DNA of 48,810 nt, taken from the NCBI GenBank assembly GCA_021817735.1, contig JAKAFX010000003.1, positions 1-48,810 on the forward strand, in the 5' to 3' direction. Of this stretch, positions 9,254-15,452 are shown piece after piece; the stretch's first letter is position 1; each line of letters opens with the position of its first letter. Below the pieces are notes generated by a model. It worked only from the letters and a program-made list of their open reading frames with translations. It searched no databases and was not told the DNA's origin. The position numbers and the translations under genes are program-made. The stretch comes from Thermoplasmata archaeon. GTDB taxonomy: Archaea > Thermoplasmatota > Thermoplasmata > Thermoplasmatales > Thermoplasmataceae.

Positions 9254-10300
9254 TTACCCATTCACTTTTCCGGAGACGGTCTCCAGATCTTTGCGAAGCT
9301 CTTCCCTAAGTCCATGCATTGGCTCAAGGAGCTTCACAATATAATCGGAGACTGCGCTCTTTAGATCGGCAGGATGTATGTTTCCCGAGATGAACATCTG
9401 GATGAAGGCATCTTCATTCTCGACTACGATGGGACCGCCTTTGTTCTCCGGTCTGTTGATGGTGATCCCCTTTGGAAAGCGTGGAAGAATGACGTGCTTT
9501 ACGATGTCGACAACTGGGTTTTCTGCTACTTCGCCCTGAGGGCAGTAAGAGGATGATATCTTTCTTCTCACTTCTTCCGGGCTGTCAAACATGAAAATGC
9601 CTGAACTGGTATCGCTCTTTGACATCTTCACCGTATTGGGATCTGATACAGGATCCATCCTCCCCTTTCCCTTCAGGCTGGAGATGAGGGGGGTGTGCAC
9701 AGCGACAACTTTCTTCTTCCCCATCTTGTCTGCTATGTCCCTGGCCAGCATATGCGCGTGCCTTTGATCCATCCCGCCTAGGGCAAGATCGAATCCAAGG
9801 AAGAATATGTCAGTCACCTGCATCAGGGGATAGATATACTTGCTGAAGTCAAGATTAGCGTCTGATTCGCTTCTTCCCATTATTGGCAGGGCCCTTACAA
9901 GCCTCTTGAGGCTGGAATTCTTTGCAACATTAAGCAGCATATGCCAGTATTCTGGGTCATCTAGAACTTCGCTTGCCCAGAGAAACCTGACGCTGTCTGG
10001 CACCCCCATGGTTCGCATGACCCTTTCAAATATCCTGCCGCTCGCCCTTATTCTTTCCATATCCCTGCCAAGTTTATCATTGACAAAGGCATGCCAGTCA
10101 GCGAGATACACGGTCATTTTGCATCCTGCTTCCACGACCTCAGATATTTTCCATGGCCACATAAGCCCAAGAGCTATGTGTGGCATCCCTGAAGGTTCAA
10201 ATCCGATGTAACCCGTATACTGCCCTGCTACCATTTTCCTGGCTTCATCTTCAGTGATTACCTCTGACGTCCCTCTAGCAAGCAGGCCATATCTGTCCAT
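9254..10300 (-). CDS. tyrS: Tyrosyl-tRNA synthetase
   Basis: The 348-residue class I synthetase charges tRNA-Tyr. The N-terminal YTGYIGFEPSGMPHIALG holds the HIGH-like motif (HIAL) and the tyrosine-binding residues; LADWHAFVNDKLG and the QVTDIFFLGFDLALGGMDQR segment are typical of archaeal TyrRS, and the KMSKS loop is VKMSKSDTSS. Length matches archaeal enzymes, which lack the bacterial S4 domain. It is the last gene of the minus-strand smc operon, starting ten bases after the Cas4-like gene. The start is the first in-frame ATG. Confidence 0.94.
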   Translation of the reverse strand: MDRYGLLARGTSEVITEDEARKMVAGQYTGYIGFEPSGMPHIALGLMWPWKISEVVEAGCKMTVYLADWHAFVNDKLGRDMERIRASGRIFERVMRTMGVPDSVRFLWASEVLDDPEYWHMLLNVAKNSSLKRLVRALPIMGRSESDANLDFSKYIYPLMQVTDIFFLGFDLALGGMDQRHAHMLARDIADKMGKKKVVAVHTPLISSLKGKGRMDPVSDPNTVKMSKSDTSSGIFMFDSPEEVRRKISSSYCPQGEVAENPVVDIVKHVILPRFPKGITINRPENKGGPIVVENEDAFIQMFISGNIHPADLKSAVSDYIVKLLEPMHGLREELRKDLETVSGKVNG

Positions 10301-10310
10301 TTAAAGGGCA

Positions 10311-10832
10311 TCACTTCTGGACTATAATTAAGCTTTGCGCGCACATTTCTCTGAATGAGCATGGCATGCATTTCATTGGGTTCTCGTGGTTTCTCGCGGG
10401 CTCTCCTACGTTGTTCCTGATCAGCTGGGTCACGTACAGGACCTTCCCTCTCAGCTGGCTAGAATTAGGGACCCTAAATGCAGAGTTCCGGTATTTTATG
10501 ATGCCATAGGGAACTTTCATGCCGGGGTTGAGATCCTCAAGGATGAGGAAATATGCACCCATCTGAACAAGATGCCCCTCCCGCGGCTTCAACGAGTCTG
10601 TGTTCTTGTATTCATAGGGTATCAGGTTTCTTCCGGATCTAACCACCATGTCCGGCTTACCCGAAAGCCCATAGGTGCGGGATCGCATTGTAGTTCCCTT
10701 GGAATGCAGATCTCCATATACCATAGAACCTACAGGCACTGCATCTTTTGCATTGCGCCTCAGGCTTATAATAAGGATTACAATGGAAGAAAGGAAAAGG
10801 GCAGCAAGGATGGAGAGAATAAGGTAGTTCAT
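10311..10832 (-). CDS. Membrane-anchored Cas4/RecB-like nuclease, catalytic half
   Basis: A 173-residue protein with an N-terminal membrane segment (about residues 3-24, hydrophobic, followed by LRRNAK) and then the core of the PD-(D/E)XK Cas4/Dna2 nuclease family: GKPD with D61, EYK with E74 and K76, QMGAYFLIL with Q90 and Y94, and a C-terminal cysteine triad C155, C158 and C164 resembling the Fe-S ligands of Cas4. It lacks the family's N-terminal helix and first cysteine, which are found in the upstream ORF. Its ATG overlaps that ORF's TGA (ATGA), so the two are translationally coupled. Substrate and role are unknown. No CRISPR array or other cas gene is in the window, so this is better seen as a DNA-processing nuclease than as adaptation machinery. 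Confidence 0.75.
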   Translation of the reverse strand: MNYLILSILAALFLSSIVILIISLRRNAKDAVPVGSMVYGDLHSKGTTMRSRTYGLSGKPDMVVRSGRNLIPYEYKNTDSLKPREGHLVQMGAYFLILEDLNPGMKVPYGIIKYRNSAFRVPNSSQLRGKVLYVTQLIRNNVGEPARNHENPMKCMPCSFREMCAQSLIIVQK

Positions 10833-11101
10833 ATGAGAGCCAACAGGATCATAAGCAGGATGGAAACTACAAGCAGCGTAGAGCCAAGCCTAAGGAGGGA
10901 TCTCGAATTTCTTGTTCTTACGTCAAGCTCCTGATGCATCTGGCGGCCAGTCACCATCCTTGAGTTTGTCCTAGCATCCCTAGGATAACCCATTTTATCC
11001 ATATACCACTGGGTACTGCAATAAGAGTATTCAGCTAGATCAGATGCACTAATGAACTGCTTCCCAAAGGTCGTTTCTTCCTCTATGTCAGATTGATCCA
11101 T
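10829..11101 (-). CDS. Cas4-like N-terminal half with membrane segment
   Basis: A 90-residue ORF. Residues 17-38 (ISASDLAEYSYCSTQWYMDK and on) and GRQMHQEL with H56 match the N-terminal region of Cas4/Dna2-type nucleases, where the YxxC cysteine (here C28) is the first Fe-S ligand and the histidine is nuclease motif I. Residues 69-90 form one hydrophobic membrane segment ending at the stop. The frame does not continue into the next ORF, which carries the remaining motifs; the stop overlaps the next ATG by four bases. It starts inside the end of scpA (19-base overlap). It may be a true two-chain nuclease, a frameshift-expressed single protein, or a recent indel. The ORF is real by motif and operon position, but its independent function is uncertain. 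Confidence 0.7.
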   Translation of the reverse strand: MDQSDIEEETTFGKQFISASDLAEYSYCSTQWYMDKMGYPRDARTNSRMVTGRQMHQELDVRTRNSRSLLRLGSTLLVVSILLMILLALI

Positions 11102-11889
11102 ATCTCACCGTAGGCAGATTCCTGTGTCAGCATAACTTTGTTGCTCCTGGCCAAGAACATCAGATACAGGAATATTGCTGCTGGCTCCATGGATGATGCG
11201 AATGTGAGTTCCCTGAATGAAAACCTGTCCAAGTTCAGTGATAACAGATCTGCATAAAGTCTCTCTATCTCGCGCTCGGGCTCCTCAATATTTAGATTGT
11301 TGACAATGCTCTCTATGTCGACTTCTTTTGGAGTGTCAACGATACGTACTGGTTCCCTGGTGTCTCGCTTGAAGTAGTAGGCCTTCCTGATAGCCTCAAG
11401 CAGTTCCACCATCAGGATCCTTCTCCTCTCCCTGTGTTGAACTGGCTCCCTTATTCCAATAACTGGTGGGCCATGTACATCTGTCAACTCAAGATCGGTG
11501 AACACAGGCTCTAGGGTCTCGGGATTGAAATCAACCTGTTCAGGGTTGATTGATTTCTTCCAGTCAGCGTCGCTTATGAGTTTTTCTGATTTCTTGAAAA
11601 GGATGTGCCAGGCCTGCCACATGAGGAATCCTGCCTGGGCAAAATCGCTGAAGTTCTCATCTATCATTGAAGAAAGGATCCTGGAAATGCCATTGATGTC
11701 TATGTACCAGGGATCTATTGCCCCCGATTCACATAGCTTGACAATGTTGGAAACAATCCTCGTGAGCACATCATCCTGAGGGATCGTGCTCCTGCCGTTT
11801 TCGGAGATAATGTTCTGGTAGAGCTCGGTATCCAGATCCAGAAGAGATCCTTGCACTGCTACGCTCTTCACGATCTCCTCAATTTGCAC
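11083..11889 (-). CDS. scpA: Segregation and condensation protein A (kleisin)
   Basis: The 268-residue protein is the kleisin partner of SMC in chromosome condensation. ScpA-type features include the N-terminal helical region, the IDPWYIDINGISRIL segment, the acidic and proline-bearing linker, and the C-terminal winged-helix region (RFSFRELTFASSMEPAAIFLYLMFLA...). It starts with GTG, preceded by GGAGGAGGGA inside the end of smc, and overlaps smc by 11 bases, so the two are translationally coupled. No scpB gene follows; the next gene is the Cas4-like nuclease half. Confidence 0.88.
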   Translation of the reverse strand: MQIEEIVKSVAVQGSLLDLDTELYQNIISENGRSTIPQDDVLTRIVSNIVKLCESGAIDPWYIDINGISRILSSMIDENFSDFAQAGFLMWQAWHILFKKSEKLISDADWKKSINPEQVDFNPETLEPVFTDLELTDVHGPPVIGIREPVQHRERRRILMVELLEAIRKAYYFKRDTREPVRIVDTPKEVDIESIVNNLNIEEPEREIERLYADLLSLNLDRFSFRELTFASSMEPAAIFLYLMFLARSNKVMLTQESAYGEIWINLT

Positions 11890-14800
11890 TCGCTCCCTCC
11901 TCCTTCATTTCCTTGATCTCTTTTTCGAATATCTCTGTATTGACGCCATCAAAGCTAGTAACGCCAATGAGCTGGTTTGCGTACTTGAGAACAGATTTCT
12001 TCAGGGTCACTACTATAGTCTGTGCCGTGTATGAATTCTCCATGAACATCTTTCCAATCCTTTCAGCGTTCGTTCCATCAAGGTACATGTCAATTTCATC
12101 CAGATAGTACACCGGTGAAGGGCTAATCCTCTGCACTGCCATAATGAATGCAAGAGCAGTGACGCTCTTCTCGCCTCCGCTAAGCAGTTCGATCTTGTTG
12201 AAGTTGTTTCCCTTGGGCCTAGCGCTGATGAACACCTCTGAGTTTAGCGGGTCATTCTCATCGGAAATCTCAAGGCGCGCCTCCCCGCCATTGGAGAGCT
12301 CATAGTATATTGATTTCATTCTCTCGTTTATGTTGTTCACAAGTCTGAGAAATACAACCTTCTTCTGGTCATTCAGTTTGGCCATTAGGCTCTCAAGTTC
12401 AGATTTTTCCCCGTTTAGCTGTTCTATTTCAACGTTCATTTTCCCGAGGTTCTCTTTCTCGCGGTCATAGTCATCGATGGCCCTGAGATTTATAGGTCCC
12501 ATCTTCTCTATTTCACTGTTTACGAAAGCTATCCTGGACTTCATCTGCGCAGAGTTCATTTCTGTCTCCAGCGGAGTACCCTTCACCTCCGTCATCTTGT
12601 TTTCAGTTTCCTTGACCCTGGCGGTGAAAGTTTCAACCCTGACATTCAGGCTGATGTGAGAGTCATGCAGAGATGAAAGGTGCACGTTTATCTTTTCGAT
12701 TTCTCCACTTCTGGACCTGTTTTCAGCTGAAAGCCGGTCTATCTCGTTGTTGAGTTCCTTGTTCCTGGAGTCTATTTGCTCTTCAAGGAGTTTCAGTTTA
12801 GCAAGCTCTGCAGAGTTTTCCTGCATAACGTTGGCTATCTGCAGGTCTGTGCTGGCTATCTCCTTAAGCCTGGCATCTATTTCGTGGATCCTCTTGGATA
12901 TCTCCGACTTTCTTCGCCTGGAAACGCTTTCCTCGGTAGCCATCGCATTGAGTTCGTTGATCAATCCAGACGCCTCCGATCTCGCACTTTCCAATTGCGC
13001 GGAGACTTCTCTCTTTCTTGCGATAAGCTCTGGTGAAATCTTTTCTAGTTTGGAGTAAATTATTGCCCTTCTGCTGTTTTCTGCCGTAATTTGTTCTTCT
13101 ACAGCCTTTATCCTGACATCAAGAGAGTGTGCGACAGACTCCAGGCTGCTGATTTCTTTCTTGAGGTCAGCTATTCTTGCGGACAGTTCTGATACTTTTT
13201 CCTCGCTTGACCTGATGGTCTCGGTGTAAGAAGCGGTCTGCGAGCCACTAACCCCTTCGTTCTTTGACAGTTCTGCGATCCTGGTGCCTGCTTCCTGCAT
13301 CTCATTCTGGAGGGCTGTAAGTTCATCACCAAGTGCAGCCACAGAGGCACTCAGTTCAGAAATAGATGCAGACAGCTTTGATGCCTTTAGCTCCAGGGAA
13401 GCCTGATCGCTGACCTTCTCCACATAACCTCCAGTTATTGCTCCACTTGTCTCGAAAATATCTCCGTCCAGCGTAACCAGCCTGACACCGCCCATGTTTT
13501 TTCTTGCGGCCGCTACATCGGGCATGACCAAGGTATCCTGGAAACAAAACCAAATAACGTTCTCATAGACGCGGTCATATTTGAGGTTCTCGGAGACATA
13601 CCCCAGACTTTCGCCTGAATTTCTTATGAGGATTGCTTTACCTCTCGGTCTTCCTGCTACAACCTTGTTAAGGGGCAGGAATGTGAGTTTGCCTGCCCTC
13701 TCCCTCTTTAGGATTGAAAGGCATTTTTCAGCAACCTGATCATCTTCAACTACGAGGGCGTTGAGCCTTGCACCAGCAGCAGCCTCTACAGCACTGCGGT
13801 ATTTCTCTTCAAACGAGATAAGCTCCCTGAGCTTTCCGATTACACCTGTGATCTCTCCAGAGGATGTCGCCCTGAAAATTGCCTGGAGTGGCCTTGAAGA
13901 TGGATGCTGTGAAGAGACCATGTGGGAGATCTTCTCATATTCCGAGTTTTCTTGCATCATCCTTTTGACCATGGCATCTTTTTCCCTGGACTTCTCAGAT
14001 ATAATTCTCCGGAGGTCGATGAAACGTGCGTTTGATTTCTCGAGGTCAGCCTTTCGTGTGGACATTTCCTCGGTTATTTGCTTAAGTCTCCATCTAGCAT
14101 CCTTGGCCTCGAATTCGAGATTGCCCTTCTGTGTCTCGAGCATTGCAAGTTCGGTGATCTTCTTTTCTTTTGCTGATTCAGAAGATTTCTGTTCCTGAAC
14201 AATTCCTTCAATTTCCTTGTTCAGCGACGCAATGCGATCATCGGAAAGCTTGAGATCGCTCTGCATCTTGAATATATCACCGCTAATCTCATCCCCCTCA
14301 GAAGATATCCTTGCAAGCTCCTCTTCAAGAACTCTCACTCTTTCAGCTACTTCTAATGACCTTGCATTCTTCTCGTTTCTGCCAATCTCATTTTCTGCGA
14401 GTCTCGAGGCTATTTCTTCTTCCTCTGCAGAAAGTTTCTCCTTCTCAGCCTCTGCCTTCCCAGACTCCTCCTTCAAATTCGACCTTCTTATCTGGTCTTC
14501 TGCGATCTTTATCCTGGTCGCGTTAATCCTTTCTGTAATTTCCTTGAGTTCCTGGCCAGAGATGCGCTCTTTTTTCTCCTCGGTCTCCCTGATTCTTTTA
14601 AGGCTAGCCTCTATTTGCGCAGAAAGCTCCTGTTTCTTTTCCTTGAGCTCATTTTCACTCTTCTCAATCTCGGTTTCCTGGCGCTTCAGTGCCTCAATCT
14701 GGGTATTGAGCGAGATTATCTCCCTTTTGAGGATAGTCGCATTGAGGTTGTTGATTTCATCAACATACCGGTTATAGTTGATCGCATCCTCTTTCTGTAC

Positions 14801-15427
14801 TTTGAGCGAGTCTACATGGGAACTTAACTCGGTTCTCAAGGCCTCGATGGTTCTTAGATTGCTCATTATACCGTCTATGTCGCTCTTGGCCTTGTCAATC
14901 TGGATGTTATAACTCTCGATTCCGGCAATGGATTCCAGCAGCTTCCTGCGCTCCACCCCGGTCATCTTGAAAATATTGTTGATGTCTCCCTGAAGTACAA
15001 AGCTGTAAGAGTCAAGGAGGAGCTGAACTCTCTGCAGGTAGTCCTCTATATCATACTTCTTGACCTTTTGGTCGTTCAGGTAGTAGTTGCTTTTATAGTC
15101 ATCACCCTCCCTTACCAGTTCTCTAGTTATCTTTGTCTTCCTCGTTTCCACTGGTAGGTCTTCTTGCTCAGAGTCTATGGTGATGCTGACTTTGCAGTAG
15201 TTCTTCTGCTTCTGGTTATGGGAGGGCTTATGTATGAGTTCAGATAGCCTGTCAACCCTGATTGTCTTGGAGGATCTTGTTCCAAGGACAAACAGAAATG
15301 CATCTCCAATATTGCTCTTCCCACTGCCGTTAGGCCCGCTGATTATAGTGAACCCTTTCCTGAAATGCAGTGTTTTCTTGAATCCAAACGACTTGAAGTT
15401 ATCCAGTTCCAGCGATTCAATATACAT
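11879..15427 (-). CDS. smc: Chromosome segregation ATPase SMC
   Basis: A 1182-residue SMC protein. The N-terminal head has FKSFG and Walker A GPNGSGKS (residues 31-38), followed by a long coiled coil rich in E, K, S and R heptads, a hinge with GVIGKLRELISFEEKYRSAV and the GGVRLVTLDGD...TGGYV segment, a second coiled coil, and the C-terminal head with LLSGGEKSVTALAF (ABC signature) and the Walker B YYLDEIDMYLDGTN. It organizes and segregates the chromosome with the kleisin ScpA. The ATG at 15427 was chosen over the TTG at 15445 because homologues start MYIESLELDNFKSFG and because a TATA-like element lies about 30 bases upstream. It is the first gene of the operon smc-scpA-Cas4-like pair-tyrS. 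Confidence 0.97.
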   Translation of the reverse strand: MYIESLELDNFKSFGFKKTLHFRKGFTIISGPNGSGKSNIGDAFLFVLGTRSSKTIRVDRLSELIHKPSHNQKQKNYCKVSITIDSEQEDLPVETRKTKITRELVREGDDYKSNYYLNDQKVKKYDIEDYLQRVQLLLDSYSFVLQGDINNIFKMTGVERRKLLESIAGIESYNIQIDKAKSDIDGIMSNLRTIEALRTELSSHVDSLKVQKEDAINYNRYVDEINNLNATILKREIISLNTQIEALKRQETEIEKSENELKEKKQELSAQIEASLKRIRETEEKKERISGQELKEITERINATRIKIAEDQIRRSNLKEESGKAEAEKEKLSAEEEEIASRLAENEIGRNEKNARSLEVAERVRVLEEELARISSEGDEISGDIFKMQSDLKLSDDRIASLNKEIEGIVQEQKSSESAKEKKITELAMLETQKGNLEFEAKDARWRLKQITEEMSTRKADLEKSNARFIDLRRIISEKSREKDAMVKRMMQENSEYEKISHMVSSQHPSSRPLQAIFRATSSGEITGVIGKLRELISFEEKYRSAVEAAAGARLNALVVEDDQVAEKCLSILKRERAGKLTFLPLNKVVAGRPRGKAILIRNSGESLGYVSENLKYDRVYENVIWFCFQDTLVMPDVAAARKNMGGVRLVTLDGDIFETSGAITGGYVEKVSDQASLELKASKLSASISELSASVAALGDELTALQNEMQEAGTRIAELSKNEGVSGSQTASYTETIRSSEEKVSELSARIADLKKEISSLESVAHSLDVRIKAVEEQITAENSRRAIIYSKLEKISPELIARKREVSAQLESARSEASGLINELNAMATEESVSRRRKSEISKRIHEIDARLKEIASTDLQIANVMQENSAELAKLKLLEEQIDSRNKELNNEIDRLSAENRSRSGEIEKINVHLSSLHDSHISLNVRVETFTARVKETENKMTEVKGTPLETEMNSAQMKSRIAFVNSEIEKMGPINLRAIDDYDREKENLGKMNVEIEQLNGEKSELESLMAKLNDQKKVVFLRLVNNINERMKSIYYELSNGGEARLEISDENDPLNSEVFISARPKGNNFNKIELLSGGEKSVTALAFIMAVQRISPSPVYYLDEIDMYLDGTNAERIGKMFMENSYTAQTIVVTLKKSVLKYANQLIGVTSFDGVNTEIFEKEIKEMKEEGASAN

Positions 15428-15438
15428 GACGAACACGT

Positions 15439-15452
15439 CTGACAAGTGTCAG
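15439..15452. repeat. Perfect inverted repeat upstream of smc
   Basis: CTGACA-AG-TGTCAG is a perfect 6+6 palindrome with a two-base centre, placed between the TATA-like element (15453-15462) and the smc start codon (15427). That position overlaps where the transcription initiation complex would sit, as expected for a repressor operator. No regulator is linked to it. Confidence 0.5.

Follow-up and report, generated by a model that had tools for sequence, protein, structure and literature searches.

The window, a stretch of 48,810 nucleotides from a member of the Thermoplasmataceae, carries smc, scpA and two short reading frames as a run of overlapping genes, next to a gene for an aminoacyl-tRNA synthetase (Table 1). 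The scpA call comes from an SMC_ScpA match of 0.003, which is below the cut-off, and the gene is conserved across the window's archaeal family. The two short frames, here termed half 1 and half 2, had been read in the initial annotation as the two coupled and membrane-anchored chains of a split Cas4-like nuclease. Re-reading of the sequence confirmed the coordinates, the residues and the ATGA overlap given there, with C28, H56 and a hydrophobic C-terminus in half 1, and a hydrophobic N-terminus, GxxD, ExK, QxxxY and three cysteines in half 2. The ribosome-binding sites at the two starts showed no difference when compared, so that of these features only the gene overlap points to coupled translation. 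Annotators should be aware that half 1 goes unrecognised; in the annotated plasmid records examined it is labelled 'hypothetical protein'.

Table 1. Features of the split nuclease locus in the window, and plasmid-borne pairs in bacteria
Feature	Coordinates or locus tags	Strand	Basis or remark
smc	11879..15445	(-)	Pfam SMC_N 2e-53, SMC_hinge 5e-26
scpA (kleisin); 19-nt overlap with half 1	11083..11889	(-)	Sub-cut-off SMC_ScpA match
Half 1 CDS (90 aa; Cas4 N-terminal lobe)	10829..11101	(-)	TIGR00372 positions 1-49, PADLOC Cas4 7e-7, alignment A1
Cys28 codon, putative first Fe-S ligand (half 1)	11018..11020	(-)	Invariant in A1
His56 codon, Cas4/RecB motif-I histidine (half 1)	10934..10936	(-)	Invariant in A1; aligns with GxxxH stretch of 8d3l
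Half 1 predicted membrane helix, ~residues 72-90 (C-terminal)	10832..10888	(-)	Kyte-Doolittle mean 2.8
ATGA stop/start overlap between half 1 and half 2	10829..10832	(-)	Sequence
Half 2 CDS (173 aa; catalytic core and three Cys)	10311..10832	(-)	Pfam Cas_Cas4 6e-9, TIGR00372 positions 59-179, alignment A2, AlphaFold model m0fba5351b4a4
Half 2 predicted membrane helix, ~residues 4-24 (N-terminal)	10761..10823	(-)	Kyte-Doolittle mean 3.05; helix 3-30 in half-2 model
GKPD, half 2 residues 58-61, catalytic Asp61	10650..10661	(-)	Invariant in A2
ExK, half 2 residues 74-76 (E74, K76)	10605..10613	(-)	Invariant in A2
QxxxY, half 2 residues 90-94 (Q90, Y94)	10551..10565	(-)	Invariant in A2
Cys155, Cys158, Cys164 of half 2, putative remaining three Fe-S ligands	10341..10370	(-)	Invariant in A2
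Tyr/Trp-type aminoacyl-tRNA synthetase; constant downstream neighbour in the window's archaeal family	9254..10300	(-)	Pfam tRNA-synt_1b, synteny
Singulisphaera acidiphila pSINAC03	SINAC_RS37645/37650		Plasmid pair, ATGA overlap
Paludisphaera borealis PALBO2	BSF38_RS29650/29655		Plasmid pair
Bacillus subtilis DSM 5611	P5635_00215/00210		Plasmid pair

The two halves match Cas4 models and the solved Cas4 structure 8d3l consecutively and in the correct order. Together they span all but about ten of the first 179 positions of the 180-position TIGR00372 model, and this gap is the site of both the gene break and the predicted membrane hairpin. Half 2 is additionally matched by Pfam PDDEXK_1 (4e-5), while half 1 alone is sub-threshold in Pfam. 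As separate chains they score 54.7 and 25.3 bits against the NCBIfam cas4 model, both below its 65-bit cut-off, and are for this reason classed as a Cas4 variant rather than an ordinary Cas4. In alignments of 24 pairs, from which one degenerate copy (L016) was excluded, the invariant residues are C28 and H56 of half 1 (A1) and D61, E74, K76, Q90, Y94, H149, C155, C158 and C164 of half 2 (A2). Such invariance argues that the motif set is not a chance occurrence. The histidine, aspartate, ExK and QxxxY that define Cas4 in the broad sense are all present and divided between the two chains, and the four conserved cysteines are partitioned as one in half 1 and three in half 2, which bears out the earlier reading that neither half holds a complete active site or cysteine set.

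Solo-Cas4 proteins occur in many archaea with no known function, and a role in defence or repair has been proposed (Hudaiberdiev et al. 2017, PMC5704561). The present enzyme shares with solo-Cas4 and Cas4 generally (PF01930, TIGR00372) the motifs, the four-cysteine pattern, the predicted fold and a broad distribution in archaea, and here has no tie to cas1; it differs in being encoded by two genes and in having a membrane hairpin inserted into the fold. Neither a split Cas4 nor a membrane form is mentioned in the text of PMC5704561, and a search of the open-access literature found no prior description of a split or membrane-built Cas4. Cas1 was not found in the window's genome (84.9% complete), in the sister genome G001 (96% complete) or in several other pair-bearing genomes such as G015 (98% complete). 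With no Cas1 found, and with scpA and an aminoacyl-tRNA synthetase gene as neighbours, a role in CRISPR adaptation was rejected. Related Fe-S nuclease domains occur in Dna2, AdnAB and AddB, which are helicase-fused and soluble whereas the present enzyme is predicted to be membrane-anchored. These domains also have four cysteines, the first lying far towards the N-terminus, and the cluster pins the domain together.

The topology of the pair was assessed by hydropathy and charge. Lysine and arginine lie only on the N-terminal side of the half 1 helix and only on the C-terminal side of the half 2 helix in 24 of 24 homologues. Positive charge before the first helix and after the second would place both soluble parts in the cytoplasm, and this pattern agrees with the hairpin previously proposed, with both nuclease halves on one side of the membrane. 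For a joint structure prediction, the halves of the orthologue L058, which lie in frame, were read through the single intervening TGA as tryptophan. AlphaFold2 gave a mean pLDDT of 90.9 and a pTM of 0.85 for this read-through of a relative, whose halves are ~35% and 49% identical to those of the window and which stands in for the window's two-chain complex. The underlying alignment (A4) has only three rows that span both halves, its half 1 rows being trimmed ahead of the helix. The model comprises two long helices (33-80 and 86-114) and a complete nuclease core. Foldseek returned Cas4 structures first (Cas4/Cas1 7mi4, 8d3l with a TMt of 0.68, SSO0001), then AdnAB, Dna2 and MGME1. Modelled alone, half 2 of the window has a good core and a poor Cys-rich end (pLDDT 46-69), while the Cys-rich lobe of the joint L058 model reaches ~87-94. 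The gain is suggestive of a lobe completed by both halves, in a comparison confounded by the shallower alignment of half 2 alone.

Taken together, the Cas4 model matches, the conserved split and the topology signals support the initial reading of a Cas4-like nuclease divided over two coupled chains, and we consider it likely that the pair forms one solo, non-CRISPR Cas4-family PD-(D/E)XK nuclease made of two obligate membrane-anchored chains. A membrane hairpin would interrupt the nuclease fold, the gene break falling at the turn that links its two helices, and both chains would sit in the membrane with their soluble parts facing the cytoplasm. Half 1 would supply the motif-I histidine and one cysteine, and half 2 the Asp/Glu/Lys residues, QxxxY and three cysteines, such that only the heterodimer could have a full active site and hold a [4Fe-4S] cluster, ligated one plus three across the interface. 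The overlapping genes may lead to paired synthesis of the chains. By analogy with established knowledge of Cas4, Dna2 and AddB, the enzyme probably combines metal-dependent cleavage with an Fe-S cluster. It probably acts at the membrane's inner face, where it would degrade or trim DNA ends. The analysis shows the split, how old and conserved it is, the partition of the motifs, concordant topology signals and a joint predicted fold; the heterodimer, the cluster, the nuclease activity and DNA as the substrate are what we infer. It would be an unusual gene fission that shares out a catalytic centre and a probable metal cluster between two membrane-anchored chains and persists over very deep divergence.

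Most other Thermoplasmatota families carry a membrane Cas4 homologue in one chain, usually one per genome and mostly 325-350 residues long, with lengths of up to ~550. These proteins share the insertion point and motifs of the split form and differ in being one chain rather than two. No name or description of them was found in the open-access literature. Their Cys/His part is separated from the catalytic core by 2, 4 or 8 membrane helices, the few counts of 3 or 7 reflecting a simple hydropathy threshold. The number of helices at this point is thus mainly even in one-chain forms, whereas nearly all split forms have 1+1, their gene break coming after the first helix and before the second, in the loop predicted outside the membrane. 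At the loci L122, L132 and L229, eight membrane helices interrupt the nuclease of the one-chain protein. The 52 one-chain sequences sampled all group in a single clade to the exclusion of the split forms (FastTree, local support 0.85-0.87), and a single change between the two states suffices in 52 of 60 bootstraps. These trees are most simply read as one old change between the split and joined states, which may have been a fission or a fusion. Both forms are present in lineages of families f3, f4 and f14. A general conserved neighbour of the one-chain form was not found, SIS/glutamine-amidotransferase genes and TPD-family genes each occurring at 12 of the 52 loci, and in the loci read the one-chain genes do not adjoin scpA.

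When 61 related genomes were searched for homologues, half 2 turned up in most genera of the window's archaeal family. Beyond this family, split pairs lie beside a putative PAC2-like gene (named by sequence reading) at L043 and beside DUF2240 at L044, occur as a second copy in f14 (L158, L159) and at four loci of f15 (L147-149, L226), and are present in 8 of 8 loci read in f46, a family of another class. At L147 (8245-9318), a gene of the same aminoacyl-tRNA synthetase family lies ~3.3 kb upstream of the pair, possibly through chance or old synteny. Planctomycetota and Bacillota also carry split pairs, which thus span three phyla with Thermoplasmatota. The split enzyme is a real, long-kept design recurring in many archaea and two bacterial groups. 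Planctomycetota have up to three loci per genome; in G275 and G277 there are about three related nuclease loci each, at least some of them split pairs. The Bacillota pairs (L238:2676-3414, on B. subtilis plasmid CP120602.1, and L239:18751-19489) lie on 64-65 kb plasmids flanked by a helicase gene and an hfq-like gene. The B. subtilis copy places a split Cas4 in a tractable organism. Relatives were not found in the viral contigs and phage records scanned, at the sensitivity of those searches, and a viral origin was rejected.

A membrane-side nuclease acting in defence or at DNA entry against viruses, plasmids or conjugating DNA would be compatible with a two-chain enzyme, and we hold this role to be a tentative one. 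Several bacterial pairs are encoded on plasmids, beside TrwC/MobF relaxases or MmeI/ISP/N6 methylases, the planctomycete neighbours including TrwC relaxases and several DNA methylases, and this setting argues for action on DNA in transit. The suggested part of solo-Cas4 in defence or repair (PMC5704561) is in keeping with such a role, and a precedent exists in ShdA of Shield, a membrane nuclease with an RmuC domain that acts in defence (PMC10270631). The likeness extends to a membrane protein with nuclease activity, predicted in the present case; ShdA is one chain of the RmuC family with an N-terminal anchor, whereas the present enzyme is a two-chain Cas4. Against a defence role, in the window's archaeal family the pair is chromosomal, is under purifying selection within a stably kept block of housekeeping genes and shows no defence-island pattern, and the one-chain forms are widespread and usually single in a genome. 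Such stable chromosomal inheritance argues for a housekeeping role in archaea. That the natural substrate is incoming or mobile-element DNA at or crossing the membrane, rather than the chromosome, may be entertained as a possibility short of even odds. Similarly, we offer only as a provisional picture a distinct and ancient branch of the Cas4 superfamily whose nuclease is built around a membrane hairpin. In archaea, Planctomycetota and Bacillota alike, one lineage of it would have retained two obligate chains that share active site and Fe-S ligands, and the enzyme would be dedicated to handling DNA that lies at the cytoplasmic membrane or passes through it. What solo-Cas4 does in archaeal cells has yet to be settled (PMC5704561), and a membrane-built form would tie it to the cell envelope and provide a testable handle.

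Less probable is a nuclease coupled to condensin, in which the pair would partner SMC-ScpA and cut chromosomal DNA at forks, at ends or in decatenation, as the initial annotation proposed in part. The order smc-scpA-half 1-half 2, with overlapping genes, and the adjoining aminoacyl-tRNA synthetase gene are found in all loci of the window's archaeal family with enough flank. FEN1 and RadB face this block in most of them, and since the whole block is syntenic the linkage to scpA is not special. Outside the family, the split pairs of other archaea and of bacteria adjoin unrelated genes, so that the constant linkage to smc-scpA that an ScpB-like or Wadjet-like accessory subunit would show is confined to this family. 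Seven genomes from several genera (G007, G011, G019, G020, G025, G027, G035) moreover keep smc-scpA and lack the nuclease. The pair does occupy the usual place of scpB by position, but scpB itself is present elsewhere, on contig C29 of G000. ScpB was found in 58 of the 61 genomes, and replacement of ScpB by the pair was rejected. Coupling to condensin is not supported by these data, and action on chromosome ends found no support. In G006 and G024, a short membrane ORF that may be a half 1 remnant replaces the nuclease pair. Reading frames of 79-82 residues with a C-terminal membrane helix lie between scpA and the aminoacyl-tRNA synthetase gene at L038:1164-1403 and L039:4060-4308, and are possibly half 1 remnants retained without half 2.

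Still less probable is that the halves act separately as two membrane proteins, or serve as a scaffold without catalysis, readings for which the possible half 1 remnants and the persistence of degenerate copies with open frames (L016, L084, L085) might speak. Each half alone lacks essential residues, and where one half keeps or loses its catalytic motifs, the other nearly always does likewise. In an automatic count that tolerated small register shifts, the motifs are intact in both halves of 74 of 79 non-redundant split pairs. The half 1 histidine and the half 2 ExK are both lost in three, namely L016 and the two copies L084 and L085 of one lineage, and of the last two, one has lost the histidine and the other resisted alignment. 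Joint loss is what a single shared active site would lead one to expect, and the losses fit this in only about two independent events. At L016, L084 and L085 both frames are open and all four cysteines kept while the catalytic residues are gone from both halves; these apparent pseudo-enzymes may keep the metal site. Such degenerate copies, together with the gene losses, show that cells can do without the enzyme. In comparison with the sister species, half 1 has a dN/dS of ~0.16 and half 2 one of ~0.04, ratios that are rough with dS near saturation. Both halves are, from this comparison, under purifying selection that appears weaker on half 1.

An assembly indel or a programmed frameshift restoring one chain, the alternatives raised initially, would be permitted by the ATGA overlap taken alone and can be dismissed, since the offset between the frames is 0 (with an intervening stop), 1 or 2 depending on the genome and no constant shift site can explain this, the same split is present in the finished plasmids of Singulisphaera, Paludisphaera and B. 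subtilis and in the single-contig archaeal genomes G010, G013, G014 and G018, and up to the break each frame encodes a membrane helix of its own. In every locus read of the window's archaeal family, a separate half 1 lies directly upstream of half 2 and the split falls at the same place. The candidate start of half 2 is unusual in several genomes, being TTG, CTG or possibly ATC. At L008:1477, L014:1486 and L013:1492, half 2 seemingly starts with CTG or ATC at the half 1 stop, and its translation there may rely on re-initiation.
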